A stretch of DNA of 64,000 nucleotides from a virus, in the IMG/VR virus record IMGVR_UViG_3300027977_000033, positions 1-64,000 of that record. One strand, written 5' to 3'. The position numbers and the translations under genes are program-made. Below are positions 600 to 50,101 of the stretch, one piece after another. The notes under the pieces were generated by a model, which did no database searches, had not been told where the DNA came from, and was given only the letters and a program-made list of their open reading frames with translations. Position 1 is the first letter of the stretch, and each line of letters begins with the position of its first letter.

Positions 600-3500
600 A
601 TGGCAGCATTAACCGGACAAACAATTGCCAGCACTTACCCGCAGTTGCTTAAGACTGCTGCCGCTGGTGGCCTATCTGCTTCTCCGACTATAGTCGAGGA
701 CGGCGACGGGACATCGTCAGCTCTTTCCTTAAGCACCGCTGGGGCGTCTGTAGCTGGTACTTTAGCTGCGTCCGGTAACTTCGCGGTCAACACCAATAAA
801 TTTAACGTGGTTGCTTCTTCCGGTAATACCGCCGTTGCTGGCACTTTTGACACCGCCGGTGATTTTAAGGTAAGTGTAAATAAGTTTACGGTCGCGGCTC
901 TGACTGGAAATACTGTTGTTGCTGGAACTCTGAATGTTTCTGGGGCTGCTGGGTTTTCTTCCAATGTGAATGTGCTCGGCTCACTATCTGCTGCGTCACT
1001 CAACCCAACCACTCTCGTTGTTGGTGGGACAGCTTCAGTGGTTGGGAATTTTGATGTAAATAGCACCAAATTTACTGTGGATGCCACCTCGGGTAATACG
1101 ACTGTTGCCGGAACTCTGGGCGTGACTGGAGCTATCACAGGTTCTCTGACAGGTAATGCCAGCACTGCAACCACTCTCGCAACCGCTAGGACAATTGCGA
1201 TTTCTGGCGATATAACTGGAACAGCAACTTCTTTCAACGGCTCCGCCAATATCGCAATCGCTTCGGCAATTACCGCAGGTTCAATTGTTGATGCTGATGT
1301 TAATGCTAGTGCTGGAATTGTAGACACAAAACTAGCCACAATTTCAACCGCTGGAAAAGTTTCGAATGCTGCCACTACTGCTACCTCTGTCAACACTCCG
1401 AGTACGATTGTTCTCCGAGGGGCTTCTGGAGAGTTCGCCTGCGGCCAGATAAATCAGACTAGTTTAAGCAGAGGGGCTGGCAGTATTAGTACGAATACTG
1501 CTGTTGGTCTTGATACTTTGCTCGCCAACACAACTGGAAACAATAACACAGCTACTGGACTCAATGCCCTCCTCTCCAACACAACTGGATCCAGTAACAC
1601 AGCTACTGGGGTCAATGCCCTCCGAGCCAACACAACTGGAATCAACAACACAGCTAGTGGATCTCGAGCCCTCGAAAACAACACAACTGGAGGAAGCAAC
1701 ACAGCTACTGGACTCAATGCCCTCCGAGCCAACACAACTGGAGGAAGCAACACAGCTAGTGGATTTCAAGCCCTATACTCCAACACAACTGGAAACAATA
1801 ACACAGCTACTGGACTCAATGCCCTCCTCTCCAACACAACTGGAGCCAACAACACAGCTAGTGGAGTGGAAGCCCTCCAATCCAACACAACTGGAGGAAG
1901 CAACACAGCTAGTGGACTTCAAGCACTCTACTCCAACACAACTGGAAGCAACAACACAGCTAGTGGATTGGAAGCCCTCAGATTAAACACAACTGGAAAC
2001 AATAACACAGCTACTGGCTTTCAAGCCCTCGAAAACAACACAACTGGAATCAACAACACAGCTACTGGACTCAATGCCCTCCAATCCAACACAACTGGAG
2101 GAAGCAACACAGCTACTGGACTCAATGCCCTCCGAGCCAACACAACTGGAGGAAGCAACACAGCTAGTGGATTTCAAGCCCTATACTCCAACACAACTGG
2201 AAACAATAACACAGCTACTGGACTCAATGCCCTCCTCTCCAACACAACTGGAATCAACAACACAGCTAGTGGATCTCGAGCCCTCGAAAACAACACAACT
2301 GGAAGTTTTAACACAGCTAGTGGAGTGGAAGCCCTCAGATTAAACACAACTGGAGGAAGCAACACAGCTAGTGGACTTCAAGCACTCTACTCCAACACAA
2401 CTGGAAGCAATAACACGGCCTTTGGGTATAGAAGCCTTGACGCCAACACAACTGGAACCAATAACACAGCTAGTGGACTATCAGCCCTCCAATCCAACAC
2501 AACTGGAGGAAGCAACACAGCTAGTGGATTTCAAGCCCTATACTCCAACACAACTGCAAGCAATAACACGGCCTTTGGGTATAGAAGCCTTGACGCCAAC
2601 ACAACTGGAACCAATAACACGGCTATTGGGAGTGAGTCCCTTGGTGCCAACACAACTGGAAACAATAACACAGCTAATGGATATTTTACCCTCACCGCTA
2701 ATACAACTGGAGCCTCTAACACAGCTACAGGAGACAAAGCCCTACAAGGCAACACAACTGGAATTGTTAACACAGCTACTGGGGTCAATGCCCTCCGAGC
2801 CAACACAACTGGGGGCAATAACACAGCTACGGGAGCAAACGCCATGCTCCTTAACACAACTGGGGACTTCAACACAGCGGATGGGGCCAATGCTCTTCGC
2901 CTTAATGTAACTGGGGATTATAACACGGCCATTGGCAATACAGCACTTTACCACAACGGAATCGTTGCCACGGCTGGCAGTTTTGTTATCGGAGTTTCTT
3001 ACACTATCCAGTCTATTGGCACTACTGATTTTACATTAATAGGAGCAGCTTCAAATACTGTTGGAGTTGTTTTCACAGCTACTGGAGTTGGTACCGGTAC
3101 TGGTACTGCTTCTAGTAATACCAGCTATAACACAGCTAGTGGTCACGAAGCCCTTTACAACAATACAACTGGATCCAGTAACGTAGCTAGTGGCGCACTT
3201 GCTCTTAAAGACAATACAACTGGAGGTTCTAATACTGCTACTGGAGTAAGTGTTCTCGAAAATAACACAACTGGATCCAGCAACACGGCTGATGGATATG
3301 GAGCCCTCTACTCAAATACAACTGGAAGTTTTAACACAGCTATCGGACAGCAGGCTGGACAGGGAACTGGAACAAATTCCAATACAACTGGAACAAATAA
3401 TACATTCGTTGGTTATCAGGCAGTAGGTGCAAGCTCAACTGCAAGCAACGTAATAACACTTGGGAATTCTGCTATCAACCTACTGCGCTGTTACGCTCCG

Positions 3501-3824
3501 CTCACAAACCTTTCGGACGGGCGGGACAAGAGTGATGTAAGAGACCTTTCTGCTGGGCTTGATTTTGTTGGCAAACTAAGGCCAGTAAGTTTTGTTTGGG
3601 ATACCAGAGACAAGGCGAAGGTTAATATCCCTGATTCTGGTTTTATTGCACAAGAACTTCTTGAGGCTCAAAAAGAAACTGGGGTTGTTATTCCAAACTT
3701 GGTGAGTCAAGAGAATCCAGAAAAACTTGAGGCTGCATATGGGACATTGATCCCAGTGCTTGTACAGGCCATCAAGGAACTTTCTGCAAAAGTAACCAAA
3801 TTAGAAAACCAGCTGAAAGGATAA
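600..3824 (+). CDS. Long repeat tail fibre/spike with C-terminal S74 chaperone
   Basis: A 1074-residue fibre preceded by an AAGGAG ribosome site. Residues 1-300 are Ala/Ser/Gly/Thr-rich, as in fibre stalks. Residues 308-783 are 28 repeats of a 17-residue unit (pattern xxNTTGxxNTAxGxxAL) that resembles YadA-head-like beta-roll repeats. An insert with a TIQSIGTTDFTLIGA module follows, then four more repeats. The C-terminus matches the Peptidase S74 intramolecular chaperone: LSDGRDK, later GFIAQE, and a terminal coiled coil. In that family the chaperone helps trimer folding and cleaves itself off before a Ser; here Ser972 is the likely site, releasing about 103 residues. The role is host recognition at the tail. 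Function is strongly supported; the exact receptor is unknown. Confidence 0.88.
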   Translation: MAALTGQTIASTYPQLLKTAAAGGLSASPTIVEDGDGTSSALSLSTAGASVAGTLAASGNFAVNTNKFNVVASSGNTAVAGTFDTAGDFKVSVNKFTVAALTGNTVVAGTLNVSGAAGFSSNVNVLGSLSAASLNPTTLVVGGTASVVGNFDVNSTKFTVDATSGNTTVAGTLGVTGAITGSLTGNASTATTLATARTIAISGDITGTATSFNGSANIAIASAITAGSIVDADVNASAGIVDTKLATISTAGKVSNAATTATSVNTPSTIVLRGASGEFACGQINQTSLSRGAGSISTNTAVGLDTLLANTTGNNNTATGLNALLSNTTGSSNTATGVNALRANTTGINNTASGSRALENNTTGGSNTATGLNALRANTTGGSNTASGFQALYSNTTGNNNTATGLNALLSNTTGANNTASGVEALQSNTTGGSNTASGLQALYSNTTGSNNTASGLEALRLNTTGNNNTATGFQALENNTTGINNTATGLNALQSNTTGGSNTATGLNALRANTTGGSNTASGFQALYSNTTGNNNTATGLNALLSNTTGINNTASGSRALENNTTGSFNTASGVEALRLNTTGGSNTASGLQALYSNTTGSNNTAFGYRSLDANTTGTNNTASGLSALQSNTTGGSNTASGFQALYSNTTASNNTAFGYRSLDANTTGTNNTAIGSESLGANTTGNNNTANGYFTLTANTTGASNTATGDKALQGNTTGIVNTATGVNALRANTTGGNNTATGANAMLLNTTGDFNTADGANALRLNVTGDYNTAIGNTALYHNGIVATAGSFVIGVSYTIQSIGTTDFTLIGAASNTVGVVFTATGVGTGTGTASSNTSYNTASGHEALYNNTTGSSNVASGALALKDNTTGGSNTATGVSVLENNTTGSSNTADGYGALYSNTTGSFNTAIGQQAGQGTGTNSNTTGTNNTFVGYQAVGASSTASNVITLGNSAINLLRCYAPLTNLSDGRDKSDVRDLSAGLDFVGKLRPVSFVWDTRDKAKVNIPDSGFIAQELLEAQKETGVVIPNLVSQENPEKLEAAYGTLIPVLVQAIKELSAKVTKLENQLKG
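1521..2948 (+). repeat. 28 tandem 51-bp units encoding 17-residue NTTG/NTA repeats
   Basis: I count 28 units of exactly 51 bp with no length change. Most begin with AACACAACTGGA. Some blocks look identical by eye over about 150 bp at an offset of 408 bp (8 units; compare from 1686 with from 2094), which points to recent recombinational copying. The repeats lie fully in frame within the fibre gene. They also create long open frames on the other strands, which are not genes. Confidence 0.9.
2949..3155 (+). other. Non-repeat insert in fibre, GTTDFT-type module
   Basis: This stretch interrupts the 17-residue repeats. It encodes a segment containing SYTIQSIGTTDFTLIGA and then FTATGVGTGTGTA. I know this module type as a recurring piece of aquatic phage structural proteins; its structure and role are not known to me. 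It looks like a swapped cassette inside the repeat array. Confidence 0.6.
3156..3359 (+). repeat. Second block of four 51-bp fibre repeats
   Basis: Four further 17-residue units (starting YNNTTGSSNVASGALAL) resume after the GTTDFT insert. They are more divergent at the DNA level than the first block, consistent with older copies not homogenised with it. Confidence 0.85.
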
Positions 3825-14711: not shown

Positions 14712-16313
14712 ATGGCAGAGCAATATCAATTACCAGCACAGTTCCAAGCCCCTAGCATGGCAGAGGTTTCCTATCGAGCCGGAGATAGTCAATCCGTGGA
14801 CAACGCGAACTTTGCATTGTTCACGGATCAGATCAATAAGTACACCAATATCCAGAACGCTAACCGAGATATATCCCTCAGGGAAAAACAATTCCAAAAT
14901 CTTGTTGTCCAGAATGATAGGGATTACGTCCTAAGGAGGGAGAGGCAGGATCAGGACATACGAAATGGTGATGTTACTTATGAGATTAATAAATTTAACT
15001 TTGACCGGAACAGAGAAAATTATAACCAATTACAAGAGGCGTGGGGCCAGAGAGAAAAATGGGTCGAGGGGGTCGATAATTTGATGCCGAGTGGGGGAAA
15101 TAGCCCGACCTATCTTAGGGACAAAGCAAGAGCATTTAGACTGTTTGCCAAGAACCCCTCTTCTTACGCAGTTCTGAACGAACTATTTAAGCCCTACGAT
15201 GACCAATACAGAGTATACCAAGCTAATAAGTCTTTAGAAGACGAGGCAGAAGTTCAGTCTGCTTTCGAGTCTGGTTTGCTGGATGGTGAAAAAATCGGAG
15301 ACCAAGACGCGACTGCTTATTTCCGAGACATTATCTTAAACCGAGAAGCGGATCCAGTCTCGTACGCCGCTGGGATGCGAAACCTAAAACGTATCGCGGG
15401 CATAGCGCAAGAAGATGTTGCTCGGCGTCGCCAAGCTTTGATCGAGGGGGAAACGAAAGGTAAGTTCGAGGCCGAAGCTTTTGGCGCAGGTGCTACCGAT
15501 GTCGAATTGACGATGGAGGGTGGTAAGATTGTCCGTAAAGCCAAGACTCCGAGGGTGTATGGGGCGTCTAGAGCTGGCACGTCTGCTTCCGGCCCGAACG
15601 TTTCACAAATTTCTCAAGCTTCGAAAGACTATATTGACTCGGCTACAAAAATTGGGGAACAAATAACAGAACTTCAAGGGAGTATTGACGGAATGCCGGA
15701 AGGAATTGAAAAGACGGCAGCCGAAGCAAATCTTGCTGGATTGCAAAGGCAACAACAATTTTATTACAAAAAAGCCGAAGAGGTTTCTTCACAAGGGGGC
15801 TCAACGACTCCGAGTGGAACACCTGCCGGAACTGGCGCTCGAGGGGTTTTGGGTGCCCCGAGCCTAGAGGATGTGAAGAAATCAGCTCCGCAGGGAACGC
15901 CTCCAACGGTTCCCCCTGCAAAAACTTCAACTCCGACGCCGGCGCCCGGAGCTTCTCCCCTTGAGTCTACACTTTCTCCTGGAGCTAGAGCAGCACTCGG
16001 AGTTGGTGAGGGGGCAGTCGGAGTTGTAGGGGCCGCAGCAGAAACAGCGATGAAGAGTATTCCTGGTGTAGCACCCGCCCTTTTTGCAGCAAAAGCAGTT
16101 AAACCCAGCCTAGAGTTTGCAGAGTCTGCTGGGTCGGTAGCTCGAGAGCTGACTCAATACTCCAAGAATGTTAACCGAGCGGAGAAAGCAGCAAGGGAGA
16201 GAGCCAAAAAAGGTGAAAATTTCCAAGCCGCATTGCTCGATGAACAGAGAAAAATTATAGAAGAATTAAGCCAAGCCGCAGACTCCAAGTCATCGGTAAC
16301 TTCCAAACTCTAA
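14712..16313 (+). CDS. Internal virion protein C-like, helical
   Basis: 533 residues. The first 240 residues are charged and helical with N/Q-rich segments (QFQNLVVQNDRDYVLRRERQ), consistent with an elongated core protein such as T7 gp15. Residues about 360-425 are Pro/Ser/Thr/Gly-rich linkers. Then comes an Ala-rich hydrophobic segment (LGVGEGAVGVVGAAAET), and a charged helical end. It starts one base after the previous gene. Function is inferred from order and composition. Confidence 0.6.
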   Translation: MAEQYQLPAQFQAPSMAEVSYRAGDSQSVDNANFALFTDQINKYTNIQNANRDISLREKQFQNLVVQNDRDYVLRRERQDQDIRNGDVTYEINKFNFDRNRENYNQLQEAWGQREKWVEGVDNLMPSGGNSPTYLRDKARAFRLFAKNPSSYAVLNELFKPYDDQYRVYQANKSLEDEAEVQSAFESGLLDGEKIGDQDATAYFRDIILNREADPVSYAAGMRNLKRIAGIAQEDVARRRQALIEGETKGKFEAEAFGAGATDVELTMEGGKIVRKAKTPRVYGASRAGTSASGPNVSQISQASKDYIDSATKIGEQITELQGSIDGMPEGIEKTAAEANLAGLQRQQQFYYKKAEEVSSQGGSTTPSGTPAGTGARGVLGAPSLEDVKKSAPQGTPPTVPPAKTSTPTPAPGASPLESTLSPGARAALGVGEGAVGVVGAAAETAMKSIPGVAPALFAAKAVKPSLEFAESAGSVARELTQYSKNVNRAEKAARERAKKGENFQAALLDEQRKIIEELSQAADSKSSVTSKL

Positions 16314-40673: not shown

Positions 40674-41510
40674 TTTCTATTCTCCTTATTATGGGGTTGA
40701 TTCTGCCCACCCTATCGGGCGAACAGATGACAACCCCCCACGAGTTAAGGCCTTCCCCGTTAGGGGTAAGAATCCTGCTCGCAAGGGGTTGTGGAGACTA
40801 CCGAATCTTTGGAAGATATTATGCTGGCCAAGCACCAAAGACTCTATTTGAATCGCATCCCGTTGGATGATCTTACTTGCCCACGCACCCTAGGTGACTT
40901 ATGCACACGGACGCTCCTACTCTCGACGAGGGAAAAGCCTAGGCCATCGCAAATGATGAGCGATGCCCTGCCCGCTTGATCGTGGGGCAATTTGGCCGTG
41001 GTAGCGGTTGCCCGCTTGATTAGGCTCAAATCCTGAAGGCGTGAGAGCGAATTCTTGCAAGATGGGAGGGAGCACCCTTGTAGCATCTACTGAACCCTTG
41101 CGGGTAGCATCGGTGGCCGTTTGCTTTAGAGAGCGAGTTGCCTCGCCCATCCTATTCACCCATCGGAGGGAATCGCCTTGAAGGCACATTTCACCTAGTC
41201 ACCTAGGTCATTCCTACTTCAAGCAGTCCAACCTCACGCTGATTTTCCAAAGAACTGAAAGATTGTGGGCAATAAGTTGAGGGAGATTCTTTGCCTAGTG
41301 TGCCTGGGTAAGTTGTTGATTATTAAGGACTTACAAGGATAGTTAAGTGTAAGCCGTTGAAGGTCAAGGGGTTAGAGGGACTCCCTATCTCCACACCCCC
41401 GCTGGCGACCAGGAAGCTATGATATATGGATGTGAAAAATTTAATTTATTTTTATCCCCTTTGGGCTAAAAACCCACCCTATTACACCCAAAACCGTAAA
41501 AACAAGCCCC
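40674..41510. other. Region with no convincing gene; scattered repeats
   Basis: About 840 bases. Frames of 80-90 codons exist on the minus strand (around 40844-41189) but have no ribosome site, no start context, and overlap each other in different frames. An 11-mer CCTAGGTGACT at 40889-40899 recurs inverted at 41197-41207. The stretch may hold regulatory RNA, origin parts or a decayed gene. Confidence 0.5.
40730..40792. repeat. Nested hairpin upstream of the 146-aa gene
   Basis: The outer arms ACAACCCC (40730-40737) and GGGGTTGT (40785-40792) pair, then CGAG (40741-40744) with CTCG (40778-40781), leaving a 3-by-3 internal loop. Inside, CCCC-GTTA-GGGG (40755-40766) forms a tight hairpin extended by CTT/AAG. 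The arrangement looks designed and could act as an RNA leader or cruciform. Confidence 0.55.
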
Positions 41511-41770
41511 AGGGTGGATTATCTTGATCCACCCTAATATAATCAACCCACCCCCTAAGTCGTTGATTTTCTTCTGTAGTGGTGTATATGGTGGATTATA
41601 TTTATAATATATAGTAGTGTATAATAAAATATAAGTATGGGCACAGCCCCATTTGTTATATAGGTAGCTCTTTCAAAAAGGCCCTTTTAATCCACCATAT
41701 ACACCACGTCTCAAGTAAATCAACGACTTACGTCGAAAAACCTAATCCACCCTCTTTTTCTTAATCCACC
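41511..41770. repeat. Candidate replication origin: inverted repeat with iteron-like 9-mers
   Basis: Two 43-base arms, 41556-41598 and 41688-41730, are inverted copies with 38 matches of 43. They flank an AT-rich 89-base centre (TATATTTATAATATATAG and similar). The 9-mer GGTGGATTA or its complement occurs five times exactly (41513-41521, 41590-41598, 41688-41696, 41743-41751, 41762-41770) and once with one change (41525-41533). A short hairpin sits at 41511-41535. GACTTACG repeats at 41725 and 41795. AT-rich centre plus iterons is typical of replication origins. Nearby primase-helicase and polymerase genes agree. Confidence 0.6.
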
Positions 41771-42006
41771 CCTTTTTGACCCTTGACTATCAAGGACTTA
41801 CGTTTTCGTCTTTTCGCCTTTGTAACTTCCTTAGGCTCAACAGCTTTCCAGATTTTGCAGTCTACATCCAGCTTTACGGACTCCTCCATGCAGAACCTAT
41901 ATATCTTCCATGACCAAGGATCCCATCCGAACCATGGAGTCCTAGATGTAAGGTCTCCGATCCAATAGTATAGATATGACACTGCGAACTGGAATCTCTT
42001 GATCAC
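41761..42006 (-). CDS. Possible basic protein next to origin (81 aa)
   Basis: GTG at 42006; a TAGGAG lies 14 bases upstream, a bit far. The product starts MIKRFQFAVSYLYYWIGDLT, is Trp/Tyr-rich in the middle (PWFGWDPWSWKIYRF) and ends with a Lys/Arg-rich tail (KRRKRKSLIVKGQ). Its composition looks protein-like, so I include it, but its 3' end overlaps the last iteron. Confidence 0.4.
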   Translation of the reverse strand: MIKRFQFAVSYLYYWIGDLTSRTPWFGWDPWSWKIYRFCMEESVKLDVDCKIWKAVEPKEVTKAKRRKRKSLIVKGQKGVD

Positions 42007-42117
42007 TTTTTCTTACATACTCCTATCTGCATGCAATTCAAAGGCTTTAGCTTTGTTTTGCAAATTAGAAGGAAAACAGATGCTAGGTTTTTTACGCCTA
42101 GACCTAGGATTGAAGGG

Positions 42118-42140
42118 CACAGACCGATTCATACTTGGTT
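42118..42140. repeat. 23-base direct repeat, copy 1
   Basis: CACAGACCGATTCATACTTG plus GTT; followed by GCCTCCATT a few bases on in both copies (42145 and 42331), so the similarity extends beyond the core. Confidence 0.65.
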
Positions 42141-42303
42141 AATAGCCTCCATTATCTGTCACTTTTTGACAGCTCCTCGCAAATTAGAAGGTGTTGTCAC
42201 AAATTCTACATAGTTTTTGTGACGCTCGACATGCATACTTTTTCGCAAAAAGGCGACATATAACAGACCGATGTGCATAGATTGTCGGTTTACAGCGACA
42301 TGA

Positions 42304-42326
42304 CACAGACCGATTCATACTTGGTT
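42304..42326. repeat. 23-base direct repeat, copy 2
   Basis: Exact second copy of the 42118 repeat, 186 bases away. The pair may be paired binding sites or remains of a duplication. Confidence 0.65.
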
Positions 42327-42529
42327 CACTGCCTCCATTCCAAACCGCTCGGTTCATATTGAAGGCTGGTTGAATAAGGAAGAGTTTCCAGTCCATATGT
42401 AAGTCTGGCTGGTATATGTTTTCATTTGCCCCGCACACTCCTGATCATTGACCCCTATATACCATTTTGGTACGAATCGTCTAGTGACATCCGCCCTCCC
42501 AGCCTTCCTAATTCTACTTGGCTGCTGGG

Positions 42530-43366
42530 TTATCGCTTTAGTAATGACCCGATCCAAGCCTTAACGCACTTGTCTATCTCACCGTACTTGCCCGGCTCAG
42601 TAAACCCCGAGCCTACCGAGTCGATCAGGTAGATCCCAAGGCAGTTCCTGATATCCCTGCTCTTGTGGATGAAGGAGCTGAGCTCCACCACCCTCCCCAT
42701 TATGTCCTCCGTGCTATATGAAAAACTCGGAAGCAGACATTTTGTAATCGCAGCGAACACTCCGGGAGCCATCGTGTCGATATCGTTTTTGAACTCCTTC
42801 CACTCCACGAGAGTTTGGATTGTAGAGCCCTTGGTGTAGAGCGTACCTATTGTCTGTGCCCCGATTGCTTTGATCAATTCGGCGAGGTCGTTGGCGTTGG
42901 GGTTCTGGCAAGAGAAGTAATCGTAGTCTATGGATAGAATCCATTTGTTGTCGCTAAACACCGGCGTGGATAAATCCGTCACCACCGTCAGGGAAAGGTC
43001 CTTCGCATCCCCCAACGTATTCCTCGGTGCATAATCTTCCTCTAAAAAGTAGAAGGGCACGGAGAGCGATGAGCCCAGTTTGATTCCCTGACCCGTCTTG
43101 CCAATCGAGAAGTTGTAAACCCCGTCCATGAAATCCATCGAGCTACGATCCTTAATCCAAGTTACTCGGTCCACCAATCCTAGATCCACCATCTTCGATA
43201 TAAAGTTGCCGATGTCTAGGTATCCGTTGAACATGGCCAAGTCGGAGTGGGCATCCACGTTCACAATCTCGAACGGGCCCTGAAGTCCGTCGTCCAGAAC
43301 CTTCCAGAACAATTCGTCGTGTTCTTGGAGATGACACACCTTCGGGATAGAACCTGGGGTGGTCAC
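42530..43366 (-). CDS. UPF0489 / peptide arginase-like protein
   Basis: 278 residues. I use GTG 43366, which follows GAGGAG near the end of the upstream gene. NVDAHSDL (Asp38, His40, Asp42) and WILSIDYDYFSC (Asp147, Asp149) match the DAHxD and SxDxD metal-binding motifs of the arginase/ureohydrolase fold, arranged as in UPF0489 proteins; some members are peptide arginases that change Arg to ornithine in RiPP peptides. In a phage this is unexpected. Possible roles: modifying a host or phage peptide, or a sensor. The active metal site looks intact by motif. It is directly after the primase-helicase gene. Confidence 0.68.
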   Translation of the reverse strand: MTTPGSIPKVCHLQEHDELFWKVLDDGLQGPFEIVNVDAHSDLAMFNGYLDIGNFISKMVDLGLVDRVTWIKDRSSMDFMDGVYNFSIGKTGQGIKLGSSLSVPFYFLEEDYAPRNTLGDAKDLSLTVVTDLSTPVFSDNKWILSIDYDYFSCQNPNANDLAELIKAIGAQTIGTLYTKGSTIQTLVEWKEFKNDIDTMAPGVFAAITKCLLPSFSYSTEDIMGRVVELSSFIHKSRDIRNCLGIYLIDSVGSGFTEPGKYGEIDKCVKAWIGSLLKR

Positions 43367-43370
43367 GTGA

Positions 43371-45509
43371 CTAGTACTCCTCACGAGCCAGACTGATCTT
43401 CCAGATTGTAGTACCACGTACAATCTTTCGTTTCAGCCTCTCGTCTGTTGATGAGAGGTTAGCCAACATTCTTCCAAGGGCTCGGGCCCCATGGATAAAC
43501 ATCTTCACGGAGTCGCGGAGACTCGCGTCGTTCTGAAAACCCAACAGCAGTTCCGTCGCCGTGCCCGACCATTCGGTTTCGTCTGGGTGATCCTTGGCAT
43601 ACTGCTTTAGGTATAGGTCCAAGAATTCCGAGAACTCATGGGAGCCGGACGATGATCTGGATTCCTGTAATAGTATCGGATGATGGTAGGATTTCACACC
43701 GTACCGTTCCGATCCTTTTGTTTCCTGCGGAGCATTCCAGCTTACCAGCCATGCGGCGAAGTGGGGGATCTCTTTGTTGAGAGTAGCCCCCAAATCCGCA
43801 TGACTTGGGAACTCGATGCCGTGATCTTTAAACTTAAACAAGCTGATCTTGTCGAGGATACTACCATCGGTGTGGGGAATCGCCTGAATGGATTCTGGAT
43901 CGTCGTTGAGCGTATCGATGATTCTCCCCATCCAATCCACGGTCTGCGCATCGTGGAACTTCCTGTGATACGCATGGCGAGTATTCGCTACACCCTTCTT
44001 GATCATCTGGCTGAACCGCTTGTGGGACTCCAGCGAGTTGGCGGAGGACGAGTCGTCGACGTTCCATACGGCTACTTCGAACAGCTCGGCGTTGAACGAC
44101 GAACCATTGACGAGGTAATCCGATGCGTCGCTACCTCCCCCCATGAGGCTGGCGACAATGCGGGAACCGAAGAGAGTTTTACCTTTCCCGACAGGTCCCG
44201 CTATAAAGACCGCTTGTCCGGGTACGAGACGACCTTCAAGGGCAGAGCAGTAGAATCTCTTGAGCCACGCCATCAGGTAGATGAGGGAGTCATGCGGGTC
44301 TAGAGCCCTGTCTAGGAAGTTGGCTATCCATGGAAAGTTCTCTCCCCAAGCGTGGTTACCCTCCGCCGGCTGTACAAGCCGTAGGCGAGAGATGTTGAGC
44401 ACCCTACGCCCATTCTGGATCAGGACCTCTCTTGGGTCATAAAGACACGGTACAGGGGCATCTATGATGCGAGAATCGCGTATACGGCGCATTGCCTCAT
44501 CCGCTTGGGATAGAGTACCCCGTAGATCGGGGGCTCCGGATAGCCCAAAAGAGCCTATGATATCCTGCTTGGCTACCCCAGACTCGGTAGACCTCCACTT
44601 ACCTTCTAGGTCCCGACGCCAGTAATACTTGCCGTCAAACCAGAAACTGGAGATGGCACCACCGTACTGATCCTCTTGGAACTCCCGTACCCAGTTGGAC
44701 CCGAATAGGTCTGCCCAGTTGTAGAAGCTACGCTCCTGCGAGAAGGCAACCATGCCCGTCTCGGTGACGATTGTCGCGGTTGGGTTTGAGTTGGCTGTAG
44801 CTTCGGGGCTCCAGAACGCTGGGCCGCGAGCTCCGACCTCAAACGGTCCCATCCACTTTCCTGGGTAGGTCGCTTGCAGTCTCTCGAATACTTTATCGAG
44901 TGGGATTGCCGCGTCACCTTCGCCACGATATTTGCGGGCTCGCTCTACTGCGATCCCCAAAAGATTATGGATTGCATTAACTTTGATCGGTGTTTCGCTG
45001 AAGGAGATCGCCGGTGGCATCCAGCAGTAATATTGTTCGGGACGATTGATGTTGTCGTCGAGTCCGGGGAAAAGGTTTTTCGCATTGGTTTCTTTTATTA
45101 GTAGCCCGAGAAATTCTTTCATCACCCCAGGGAGCAACGAGATTGGTTCCTCGAACATCCAGATGACGCGGCAGTTCCCGCTGACAGTGCGGTGCGCGAA
45201 CATGGGTTTAAAACCCGTGCGTGTTCTACGTCCTAGCCCGTCGGTGATTTCTTCACGGGTCACGACTGCATCATAGTCGGCGATCAACCCGTGCATCTTC
45301 CACGGAGCATTTGTCTTGTTCACCCGACCGTGAGGATTGATTCCCTCGTAGGCGGAAACGAAGTGACCTTCGGTCGTGCTTAACGACACCCAGTCTTTGA
45401 ATGCATCTTTGCCTTTTGGAAACTCTGGCCAAGTCTTGATCTCCCAAGGTTTGACTGGTGTGATGTTTCCGCTCGATAGGTTAGGGAGTGAGAAAAGAGT
45501 TGTTTTCAT
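43371..45509 (-). CDS. Primase-helicase (SF3-type ATPase)
   Basis: 712 residues; ATG 45509 is coupled by ATGA to the polymerase stop. The first 350 residues could hold a primase-polymerase-like domain (GLIADYDAVV and RPEQYYCWMPPA). The ATPase part has Walker A GPVGKGKT (near residue 443) and a later acidic strand VAVWNVDDSSS, fitting D5/SF3-like phage helicases. Such proteins make primers and open the duplex. It lies between polymerase and arginase-like genes in the replication operon. Confidence 0.72.
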   Translation of the reverse strand: MKTTLFSLPNLSSGNITPVKPWEIKTWPEFPKGKDAFKDWVSLSTTEGHFVSAYEGINPHGRVNKTNAPWKMHGLIADYDAVVTREEITDGLGRRTRTGFKPMFAHRTVSGNCRVIWMFEEPISLLPGVMKEFLGLLIKETNAKNLFPGLDDNINRPEQYYCWMPPAISFSETPIKVNAIHNLLGIAVERARKYRGEGDAAIPLDKVFERLQATYPGKWMGPFEVGARGPAFWSPEATANSNPTATIVTETGMVAFSQERSFYNWADLFGSNWVREFQEDQYGGAISSFWFDGKYYWRRDLEGKWRSTESGVAKQDIIGSFGLSGAPDLRGTLSQADEAMRRIRDSRIIDAPVPCLYDPREVLIQNGRRVLNISRLRLVQPAEGNHAWGENFPWIANFLDRALDPHDSLIYLMAWLKRFYCSALEGRLVPGQAVFIAGPVGKGKTLFGSRIVASLMGGGSDASDYLVNGSSFNAELFEVAVWNVDDSSSANSLESHKRFSQMIKKGVANTRHAYHRKFHDAQTVDWMGRIIDTLNDDPESIQAIPHTDGSILDKISLFKFKDHGIEFPSHADLGATLNKEIPHFAAWLVSWNAPQETKGSERYGVKSYHHPILLQESRSSSGSHEFSEFLDLYLKQYAKDHPDETEWSGTATELLLGFQNDASLRDSVKMFIHGARALGRMLANLSSTDERLKRKIVRGTTIWKISLAREEY

Positions 45510-47269
45510 TTCTCGTAACACTCCGCTTCTTTGGATTCGCTACCAATGGGACAGCCCGGTAGCCATTCTGGTGTGGTACTCATAATGTGTTCTACGTCCT
45601 TACATTTCACGTCCTTATCGACTTCAAGGATAACTTCGTCGTGGACGTGAAACAGAACACGAAGCCCTTGATTTTCGAGGCGCTGGACACATTCTGCGAA
45701 TACATCCCTCGCCGTTGCCTGAACTAGATTCTCACACAGCCGTCCGCCGTAAAGAGGATATTTTGGTCCCCCCAATTCGAGCGAAGCTCTCCAGTCTGGT
45801 TTGCCATGTTTACCCATTTGGGGCGTGACATCCCAATACTTTTGTGCCCGACCCGATGGAAGTTCAACGTGATAGTCTTCGCCTTTGGATTCCCGAAGCC
45901 CTCGCTCCAGCTTGCTCCATAGCTCCACCACTTTGAAATTTTTACGGCGGTAGTCATCTACCAAGTCCCTGCTCCTAGCCTCGGTGATTGTGAGGCCAGC
46001 CATGAGCTTGGCGATGAGAACGAACTTCTTGGAACCGCAACCGTAGCCCAATCCCAAGACCTGTGCTTTGGCTAGGGCATAGAGATCCTTGGATTTCTTG
46101 AAGGTACCCTTCTCACCCTTCCACATCCCCGTCGAGATGGCGAAGGCTTCGTAGATGCCGTAGCCGTTCCTTACAGCCCCAAGGAGAGCCGTATTGCCAG
46201 CGAGCCATGCCAGTACCCTAGGTTCGATCTGGGACAGGTCTGAGATGATGAACTTCTTCCCCGCCCTAGGGATGAGACAAGCCCGTAGGTCTACCCCGAA
46301 GCATGGGTCCCTTGGTAGGTTCTGGAGGTTAAACTTGCTGTCCCCCGACCACCTACCGGTATGGGCACCAAAGTACTTTAGCCCGAAAGGCATAGTCCCG
46401 TCAGGACGCCGGCGACGATGGAGCATGTGCATTTTCTGCAATAGCATGTTGGCCTTACGCCAGTCCCGCATAGCCCCGACCCATGGGAACTTCTCGCCAT
46501 AGGTTTCCTCCCATAGCTGACAGCCAGGATCGTCTTCGGAAGTAGATGGTGGTACCTCGATGCCAGCCTCACGGCAAGCCTTGGCTAGCCCAGTCACGGA
46601 TAGTACGTCGCTGGTGTAGTCCCCGTCGGTCTTCCATGGCATGTGCTCGATTGCCTTGATGCGAATCCAATCGAGGGCGTTCAGCCCCTTGTCGACCATC
46701 TCGGTGTTCACATTGATGCCATGCCACCCAGCCTCGATGGTGTGCTTTGATAAAAATTTTTCCACAGCAGACATGCGATTACCGAAAGTCTCGTAGAGAT
46801 CCAAGCAATGCTGAGCATCCTTCGCTGCGTAGAGCTTAAACTCCGTACCCTGCTCGGTATCCTTGACCTCGTTCCAAGTCTTGCCCTTCATAGCCGAGCG
46901 AGGATCTTTCGACATGTCTACTCCGAGGAGTTGCTTAGAAGCCCCAGCTAAATTGCGAGGAGCGCCCATGTATGCAGATAAGTTGGCGGTGCAGAAGAAT
47001 TCCCTTGGCCTAGCTTTGGTGATCCCCAGCTCGTGTAGACGCTCAACACAAGATCCGTCGAAAGCGTAGTTGTGCGCCACCCAGCGACCCCCCTCGATTT
47101 TGTCCCAAGGGGCCATTTTCGGGGGGCCTACAAAGTCCACCCCCGGCCCCTTGATTGCCACCATATAAATGTCCGCGTTTTGGTGGCGCAGGTAATGCCA
47201 CGTCCCTAGCGTAGTGATAGACGTTTCCTTATCGTAGTACGTTTCAAAATCTATTGCGTATGTGTTCAT
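45506..47269 (-). CDS. Family A DNA polymerase with 3'-5' exonuclease
   Basis: 587 residues; ATG 47269 coupled by ATGA. The N-terminal exonuclease has DFETYYD (Asp7, Glu9). The polymerase domain has motif A SDLSQIEPRVLAWL (near residue 341), motif B with KAQVLGLGYGCGSKKF, and motif C FHVHDEVILEV (near 543). This is the layout of T7/Pol I-type replicative polymerases. It should copy the phage genome with the neighbouring primase-helicase. Confidence 0.92.
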   Translation of the reverse strand: MNTYAIDFETYYDKETSITTLGTWHYLRHQNADIYMVAIKGPGVDFVGPPKMAPWDKIEGGRWVAHNYAFDGSCVERLHELGITKARPREFFCTANLSAYMGAPRNLAGASKQLLGVDMSKDPRSAMKGKTWNEVKDTEQGTEFKLYAAKDAQHCLDLYETFGNRMSAVEKFLSKHTIEAGWHGINVNTEMVDKGLNALDWIRIKAIEHMPWKTDGDYTSDVLSVTGLAKACREAGIEVPPSTSEDDPGCQLWEETYGEKFPWVGAMRDWRKANMLLQKMHMLHRRRRPDGTMPFGLKYFGAHTGRWSGDSKFNLQNLPRDPCFGVDLRACLIPRAGKKFIISDLSQIEPRVLAWLAGNTALLGAVRNGYGIYEAFAISTGMWKGEKGTFKKSKDLYALAKAQVLGLGYGCGSKKFVLIAKLMAGLTITEARSRDLVDDYRRKNFKVVELWSKLERGLRESKGEDYHVELPSGRAQKYWDVTPQMGKHGKPDWRASLELGGPKYPLYGGRLCENLVQATARDVFAECVQRLENQGLRVLFHVHDEVILEVDKDVKCKDVEHIMSTTPEWLPGCPIGSESKEAECYEK

Positions 47270-47556
47270 TTTATTTTGATGATCGTAATATGATCTTCTC
47301 CAATGATCGCTTTTGTCATCACCTGTTCTATGAAGACCATGACTCCCAGACAAGCAGAAAGACCTTTCGTGTCTTCCCTGTCTGCTTTCTCTATTACTTT
47401 CCCTATCGCAACATGCGCCTTCACAAAATTGTCGATGCTCTCGATCGGGCCAAATTGCTGAACAATCTGCTTTGTGGCCTGAGCGGTCTCCTCGAGATTT
47501 GGGTCAGGGATTACTATGAGTTCTTTGGAGAGTTGGTCTGCTGATTTGTGGTACAT
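47266..47556 (-). CDS. Hypothetical protein (96 aa)
   Basis: 96 residues, mixed helical (LSKELIVIPDPNLEETAQAT, then VKAHVAIGKVIEKADREDTK). Its stop overlaps the polymerase start. Ends GEDHITIIKIK. No known family; possibly a polymerase accessory by position only. Confidence 0.52.
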   Translation of the reverse strand: MYHKSADQLSKELIVIPDPNLEETAQATKQIVQQFGPIESIDNFVKAHVAIGKVIEKADREDTKGLSACLGVMVFIEQVMTKAIIGEDHITIIKIK

Positions 47557-49002: not shown

Positions 49003-49171
49003 TTTGCTTTTCTTTCGCGATTGATTTTGCTATTAACTTTGCCGCGTCAATTTGGCAGATCGCTGCTCGAATTGTGTGACAACCGCCGGCAGGCGCTTCG
49101 TCTCGAAGCTTTGCCATAATTTTTCTACCCCGCTCTAGCATGTCGATTAACCACTCTATGTCGTGTCTCAT
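48986..49171 (-). CDS. Small helical protein (61 aa)
   Basis: 61 residues; DIEWLIDMLERGRKIMAKLR and later AAICQIDAAKLIAKSIAKEK are two helices joined by a Gly/Cys turn. Overlaps its downstream neighbour by 17 bases. Unknown function. Confidence 0.52.
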   Translation of the reverse strand: MRHDIEWLIDMLERGRKIMAKLRDEAPAGGCHTIRAAICQIDAAKLIAKSIAKEKQNEEKQ

Positions 49172-49800
49172 TTATCTTCCTCCCTTTTGTTAATATCGTA
49201 ATAGAACGAATCAGTGTCCTCTGTGATCCACCTATCGGATTGGTTTTCCACAGACGGCAACTCGGTGTCTACACGAAATTGTTTTAAGTTTTCTGGCAAC
49301 TTCTTCGTCACCCAATTAGAATCCCGCCAGAAGATTCGGTTGTTAGGCATACACAGCAAGTACCCATCATCTGCAGCAAAGACGTGCCCACACTTGTAAT
49401 CGGAAGGCTCATCGCTGTAGGGGTTATGAAACCAGTCTACGGTAAACATGTAGGTGCCCCACACTTTGGTTCCATCCCTCAATACGATCTGGGCTCGGTG
49501 ATACCCTAGGAAACTATACTCGCTGACGGTCACGTTCTCCGAGAAGCAGTCCCACAATTGCTTGTAGTTGAAAGGTATATCGTTGGTAGGTTTATCCAGA
49601 TAAATTTCCGATAGCGGAACGCGGGATCGCACCATTCCAGTATCGGTCATAACGTGAAATGTTAGTATAGTTCCGGGGTAAGATTGCAGTGCAAAGACGT
49701 ATACATTGTACAATTCATCTCGGTCGGCTTCATCTTTTGTGAAGAAAGACTTTCTTACTTTGGCTTTAAAGCTTGGGATATTTTCGTTTAGAGTTGCCAT
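49168..49800 (-). CDS. Conserved phage protein (210 aa)
   Basis: I choose ATG 49800, where a conserved-looking chain begins (MATLNENIPSFKAKVRKSFF). The body is rich in aromatic residues: LTFHVMTDTGMVRSRVPLSE, GTYMFTVDWFHNPY, YKCGHVFAADDGYLLCMPNN. I have seen proteins like this in replication regions of other aquatic phages, without known function. It is compact and probably an all-beta domain. Confidence 0.62.
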   Translation of the reverse strand: MATLNENIPSFKAKVRKSFFTKDEADRDELYNVYVFALQSYPGTILTFHVMTDTGMVRSRVPLSEIYLDKPTNDIPFNYKQLWDCFSENVTVSEYSFLGYHRAQIVLRDGTKVWGTYMFTVDWFHNPYSDEPSDYKCGHVFAADDGYLLCMPNNRIFWRDSNWVTKKLPENLKQFRVDTELPSVENQSDRWITEDTDSFYYDINKREEDK

Positions 49801-49801
49801 A

Positions 49802-50101
49802 TTAGGATACCATTTCCTCAACCGGAACATCTTCCTCAATTTCGGCCCAAGCAGGAGGCTCTATTTCTCGGAAGCGTTCTTGATTAAATCCTCGTTCTGG
49901 GTGGGGCGGGTGGTTTGAGGCTGGGTTAAGAAGTCCTTCTAAGTATATAACGACTTCTCCCGCTTCACCTTTCCAGTTCACCCCAATTCCCACGTCTCTG
50001 ACTTGATAAACCTGATCTTTTACTGGTAAGAATTGGTAGAAACTTACGACCTCTTTGGGAAAGTTGTCGTCCGTACAAATAACTTTTGAACCCCGTCTCA
50101 T
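49802..50101 (-). CDS. Hypothetical protein (99 aa)
   Basis: 99 residues with an AAGGAG site before ATG. Start MRRGSKVICTDDNFPKEVVS then FLPVKDQVYQVRDVGIGVNW looks like a small beta barrel; acidic end (AWAEIEEDVPVEEM). Start overlaps the upstream stop (TAATG). Unknown function. Confidence 0.55.
   Translation of the reverse strand: MRRGSKVICTDDNFPKEVVSFYQFLPVKDQVYQVRDVGIGVNWKGEAGEVVIYLEGLLNPASNHPPHPERGFNQERFREIEPPAWAEIEEDVPVEEMVS

Follow-up and report, generated by a model that had tools for sequence, protein, structure and literature searches.

Iterons around an AT-rich core, downstream of a primase-helicase gene, form a candidate replication origin in an uncultured phage

PICI origins are described as always comprising two sets of iterons that flank an AT-rich region and lie 3' of rep, and as resembling no other bacterial replicon known (PMC6092414). 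In SaPIs, the iterons come immediately after the gene for the Rep helicase, which binds them through its C-terminal domain (PMC7581432). PICIs and SaPIs have the closest known design to the locus described here: an origin downstream of the helicase gene, iterons that are specific to each element, and an SF3-type helicase whose C-terminal domain binds the origin, a role that is proposed for the domain here (PMC6092414, PMC7581432). Other systems are similar in part. As PMC4234260 summarises for phage P4, its alpha protein fuses a primase to an SF3 helicase and has a C-terminal winged helix that binds origin repeats. This likeness is drawn from the protein. The P4 alpha primase is bacterial-type (Toprim), unlike the one here. 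ORF904 of pRN1 and phage BIP-1 have an AEP-type primase, an SF3 helicase, a winged helix, and an origin 3' of the gene (PMC4234260). Finally, the polymerase of the deep-sea phage NrS-1 is the best structural match for the helicase part of our protein; the available part of the published account presents its tail region as a novel fold and mentions no origin.

We analyzed a 64,000-nt stretch of DNA (the window) that comes from a virus record of 65,820 bp. An earlier note on the window had proposed a replication origin near primase-helicase and polymerase genes, and both genes are there. Judging from its sequence and from the comparisons below, copying of the phage DNA very probably starts at the non-coding iteron array that surrounds an AT-rich core. 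The features are (box A is the iteron, box B a second repeated word):

41513..41534, both strands: left outer iteron pair (box A), GGTGGATTA (+) and GATCCACC (-), kept in L005, L007, L011, and L013
41540..41549, minus strand: degenerate box A, GGTTGATTA; kept as AATCAACCCACCCCC
41556..41567, minus strand: left box B, ATCAACGACTTA; fits the IHF consensus WATCAANNNNTTR
41581..41598, plus strand: tandem boxes with 9-bp spacing, GGTGTATAT-GGTGGATTA, inner left arm, abutting the AT-rich core
41599..41687, no strand: 89-bp AT-rich core between the innermost iterons; candidate unwinding element
41688..41705, minus strand: tandem boxes TAATCCACC-ATATACACC, inner right arm
41719..41730, plus strand: right box B, ATCAACGACTTA
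41743..41770, minus strand: right outer iterons, two box A 19 bp apart (41743-41751, 41762-41770)
41789..41800, plus strand: further box B, ATCAAGGACTTA, inside the 3' end of the 81-aa ORF
41556..41730, no strand: 43-bp inverted arms with an 89-nt spacer; strong single-strand fold
41761..42006, minus strand: 81-aa ORF with a Trp-rich middle and a basic C-terminal tail (AKRRKRKS), overlapping the array
43371..45521, minus strand: 716-aa protein with AEP-like primase motifs, SF3 helicase, and C-terminal winged-helix-like domain (626-713); proposed initiator
45506..47353, minus strand: family A DNA polymerase with a weak 3'-5' exonuclease match; proposed replicase

The 43-bp arms (41556-41598 and 41688-41730), which the earlier note had reported, were re-found independently: they match at 38 of 43 positions (88%) when inverted, with 89 nt between them. 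The best 43-bp arm expected by chance matches at 27 of 43 positions (from 60 Markov sequences with the local composition), and the best arm in other 800-bp pieces of the window (scanned from 4,001 onward) also matches at 27 of 43. Within the core, the richest 40 bp is 93% AT. The five exact copies of GGTGGATTA/TAATCCACC within 260 bases (41513-41770) are present as described; GGTGGATTA occurs 6 times in the 64 kb, with 5 of these at 41513-41770, versus 0.42 expected. There are also near-copies inside the array (GGTGGATCA near 41525 and GGTTGATTA near 41540). In the window, as in the related loci L055, L056, and L058, the core directly adjoins tandem boxes that are spaced by about one helical turn. 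The region was said to have little or no coding: no ORF of at least 60 aa overlaps 41430-41760, but the 3' end of the 81-aa ORF does reach the last iteron. The 81-aa ORF has no family match, and because it is present in the close clade only, we ruled out its product as a universal iteron binder. Searches for RNA families and tRNAs found none.

Host DnaA might initiate replication instead, with the iterons (TAATNCACY on the other strand) as variant DnaA boxes. Indeed, TAATCCACC/TAATACACT are two positions off TTATNCACA and vary at the same central base. However, TTATCCACA is absent from the window, there is no cluster of TTATNCACA boxes, and of the five looser TTWTNCACA sites, none are among the iterons (the nearest is at 41431). 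Also, no DnaA domain was found in the phage, and the words in other clades turn unlike DnaA boxes (for example, GGGTAGGG and TAGGGAAC). We consider initiation by DnaA at these boxes to be highly improbable.

The earlier note had named a lack of conservation of the repeats as evidence against an origin. We ran this check, and the repeats are kept in close relatives, which supports the origin reading. The array is in the same place in L005, L007, L011, and L013, whose helicases are 93-98% identical to ours. Blocks such as CAACCCACCCCCTAAGTCGTTGAT are unchanged in these four, and the DNA further left is largely unrelated. The spacing between the innermost iterons is 88-89 bp in the window and in three relatives. 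As a separate observation, the block at 41430-41457 (GTGAAAAATTTAATTTATTTTTATCCCC) is nearly unchanged in close relatives with this stretch, and the DNA to its left is largely unrelated.

Conservation thus extends to the boxes and their geometry, but not to the structure formed by the 43-bp inverted arms. In L005 and L011 (helicases 93-94% identical), the right arm is altered so that just its two boxes are left, and the predicted fold, which is very strong in the window (z = -12 versus shuffles), no longer stands out clearly from shuffles (z = -0.6 and -1.4, respectively). Since these relatives lose the hairpin and keep the boxes and spacing, the selected features are the boxes and their spacing, not the hairpin. 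This bears on the idea that the functional element is a large stem-loop (cruciform) formed by the arms, of the kind proposed for pRN1 and phage BIP-1, and that the repeated words are by-products of symmetry. Other clades do have long inverted arms of above-chance quality with other sequences (25/25 in L101, for instance), and pRN1, whose protein is of a related type, requires a stem-loop 3' of it (PMC4234260). But L041, L045, and L058 lack above-chance arms, and Cch2 of SCCmec bound its origin without the inverted repeats but not without the direct repeats (PMC7581432). We therefore view the stem-loop as very unlikely to be the functional element. Iterons are absent from the origins of pRN1 and BIP-1, which have a stem-loop instead (PMC4234260). 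Here the iterons are conserved, and the large stem-loop 3' of the replication gene is not, given its loss in two close relatives. From these sequence comparisons, we argue that the iterons, rather than the stem, are what is kept in this lineage. Long symmetric arms seem to arise independently in several clades. L101 has perfect 25-bp inverted arms around an AT core at 15017-15154, with GGGTAGGG iterons.

Box B (TAAGTCGTTGAT/ATCAACGACTTA), which the earlier note had overlooked, makes up the outer portion of each arm and has further copies close by. At the array, ATCAACGACTTA matches the IHF consensus WATCAANNNNTTR, and box B recurs in several clades; the exact 12-mer lies within the arrays of L098 and L082. 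IHF-type sites occur at 1.32 per kb in arrays versus 0.049 elsewhere (about 27 times denser). Box B is probably bound by an IHF-type bending protein, judging from these matches. It may serve another protein, because the conserved CGAC in the middle of the box exceeds what IHF needs.

Beyond the close relatives, family members with as little as about 31% identity have an equivalent array downstream of this helicase gene, which supports the origin reading more widely. Relatives whose helicases are 63 to about 30% identical to ours have their own arrays there, in which sets of iterons, usually separated by 50-125 bp, enclose a core of 72-95% AT, with words that are specific to each clade (including AAGTGGATT, AAGTGTCA, GGGTAGGG, and TAGGGAAC). 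For example, L041 (helicase 62%) has four copies of AAGTGGATT; L056 has AAGTGTATT; L058 has AAGTGGATT, AAGTGTATT, and AAGTGGGG, and its array begins at the stop codon of the helicase gene; L081 has AAGTGGGTT; and L045 (helicase 37%) has AAGTGGGGT. The words in still more distant relatives are AAGTGTCA, GGGTAACT, GGGTAGGG, TAGGGAAC, GTAGGGGT, GGTGGAGA, GGTGGGGA, GGGTGGGC, and AGGTGGGG, and L082 has GGGTGGACTT. L016 and L018, which are relatives of the polymerase with a different downstream gene set, have GGGTGCTG arrays right after a 423-aa ORF that occupies the position of the helicase gene. The similarity of the iterons increases with the similarity of the helicases, and the words differ among clades.

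When we scanned with a single motif, the densest cluster in the entire locus was at the place of the array in 9 of 10 inner-clade loci; in L055, the cluster was weaker and only partly within the array. In most arrays, there are iterons on either side of the AT peak, and the inner copies, 51-125 bp apart, are usually opposed; in L055, L056, L058, and L121, the iterons that we called are at the AT peak or on one side of it. (For this survey, the iteron words were picked for each locus, and the hypothesis was framed after the first array had been seen.)

We also counted, for 38 helicase clusters, mixed-orientation clusters of at least 4 identical 8-mers. The 145 kb downstream of helicase genes held 18, some of which fall within ORFs and are possibly coding repeats, and the remaining 599 kb held 7 (P = 1.8 · 10−8). 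Over the 4 kb that follow the helicase gene, their density was 10 times that of the other sequence. Of the 14 clusters that were non-coding, 11 were downstream of the helicase (P = 3 · 10−6). Two of the other three (in L098 and L076) are likewise downstream, at 4.9 and 6.2 kb. About 20 of the 38 helicase clusters had no such cluster by the strict test in the available stretch, so the array rule is common but not proven to be universal. The clusters in L068, L048, and L072 were judged to be coding or low-complexity repeats and were rejected as origins. The helicase relatives L076, L077, and L078 are from MAG contigs labelled as Akkermansia and Verrucomicrobia, which hints at hosts for part of the family.

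The linkage to the helicase gene also bears on two other functions. The array is intergenic and contains promoter-like and terminator-like matches, so it might control transcription of early genes, as an operator or a region with several promoters. But the number of promoter-like matches is at the level of shuffled sequence, the flanking genes vary among relatives while the linkage to the helicase persists, and an operator needs no AT-rich core of 50-125 bp between opposed sets. A role in transcription is very unlikely. Repeats with dyads occur at packaging (pac/cos) and partition sites as well, and one related contig (L008) ends inside the array. However, the records of relatives break at differing places, so this single end is explained by assembly. 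Across the family, the linkage is to the helicase gene, and no partition gene was recognized among the genes searched. We give a packaging or partition site almost no chance.

The proposed initiator is encoded 1.6 kb upstream of the array in the window; in L058, gene and array are directly adjacent. All 63 of the protein's relatives match DUF5906. The DxD of the AEP-like primase (D82/D84), Walker A (G442-K448), Walker B (D489/D490), and Asn539 are invariant or nearly so. A sequence search against solved structures with a thin alignment gave nothing significant, and a first structure model from 14 sequences was poor; the AlphaFold2 model from 63 sequences had a mean pLDDT of 87. Its best structural match is the C-terminal region of NrS-1 polymerase (Z = 22.4 over 286-627). 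It also matches the SaPI5 primase-helicase (Z = 16.9 over model residues 205-703), and the next matches are D5-type, AAV Rep, and papillomavirus E1 helicases. The predicted fold and the SaPI5 match point to an SF3-type helicase with a C-terminal DNA-binding domain. Residues 626-713 (helices and then a beta hairpin) appear winged-helix-like in the model, given their secondary structure and the overlap with SaPI5. We call the primase AEP-like from its motifs, as the fold search barely covered that part. The similarity of the iterons tracks the helicase core more than the C-terminal domain, so this correlation does not pin down which domain binds the iterons.

Our full explanation, which we consider likely, is that 41511-41801 is the replication origin, that the protein encoded at 43371-45521 binds, melts, and primes it, and that box B is IHF-type. 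The primase-helicase would bind the GGTGGATTA iterons via its C-terminal winged helix, and rings of it would assemble on the two oppositely facing sets. These helicase rings would melt the 89-bp AT-rich core and then unwind outward, and the primase domain would prime the phage's family A polymerase.

The array is a phage version of the PICI/SaPI design with an NrS-1-like helicase. Unlike PICIs and SaPIs, these are phages, with their own family A polymerase and with longest records of about 64-80 kb; the 65.8-kb record, unlike a small satellite island, includes rII, endolysin, exonuclease, and tail or virion structural genes. Other differences are that the helicase fold is nearest to the C-terminal region of NrS-1 polymerase, that 0-5 kb of other genes may separate the gene from the array, and that several clades have box B. 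That the design occurs beside the primase-helicase in large phages of about a dozen or more clades suggests that it is broader. We lean slightly towards a more general view, of a widespread uncultured lineage with PICI-like two-set iteron origins, NrS-1-type primase-helicases, and words that change quickly from clade to clade, in which gene and origin are a co-evolving, portable module and the design is shared with phage satellites. Our literature search, which was incomplete, found no paper describing these origins, and we found no cultured member of the lineage. The series of clades provides natural pairs of initiators and iterons for studying how SF3 initiators choose DNA, and the layout of the arrays offers a rule by which origins may be located from sequence in uncultured phages.

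The 716-aa protein had no match in a phage collection by protein search, and the 38-50 kb stretch had no near-identity match there. The genome includes genes for rIIA/rIIB, endolysin, exonuclease, helicase, Holliday resolvase, and tail or virion structural proteins. Related 64-66 kb records start elsewhere in the same gene order, and these differing start points suggest a circular or circularly permuted map. GC skew, a check that the earlier note had proposed, gave no support: at silent (4-fold) sites, an origin at 41.6 kb should give skew of the opposite sign. Cumulative GC skew follows gene direction, which also confounds the silent-site skew.

Some other parts of the window stood out. Between the primase-helicase gene and the array, a 297-aa ORF (42530-43423, minus strand) has a UPF0489 domain, and a long direct repeat (ACAGACCGATTCATACTTGGTT...GCCTCCATT) has two copies about 185 bp from each other in DNA of poor coding character (42100-42340). 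A 223-aa ORF (49168-49839, minus strand) matches phrog_3704, a PHROG family that is annotated as ferredoxin. Finally, dense periodic repeats at 1350-3550 lie within a 1074-aa ORF (600-3824) that matches virion structural and tail spike families.
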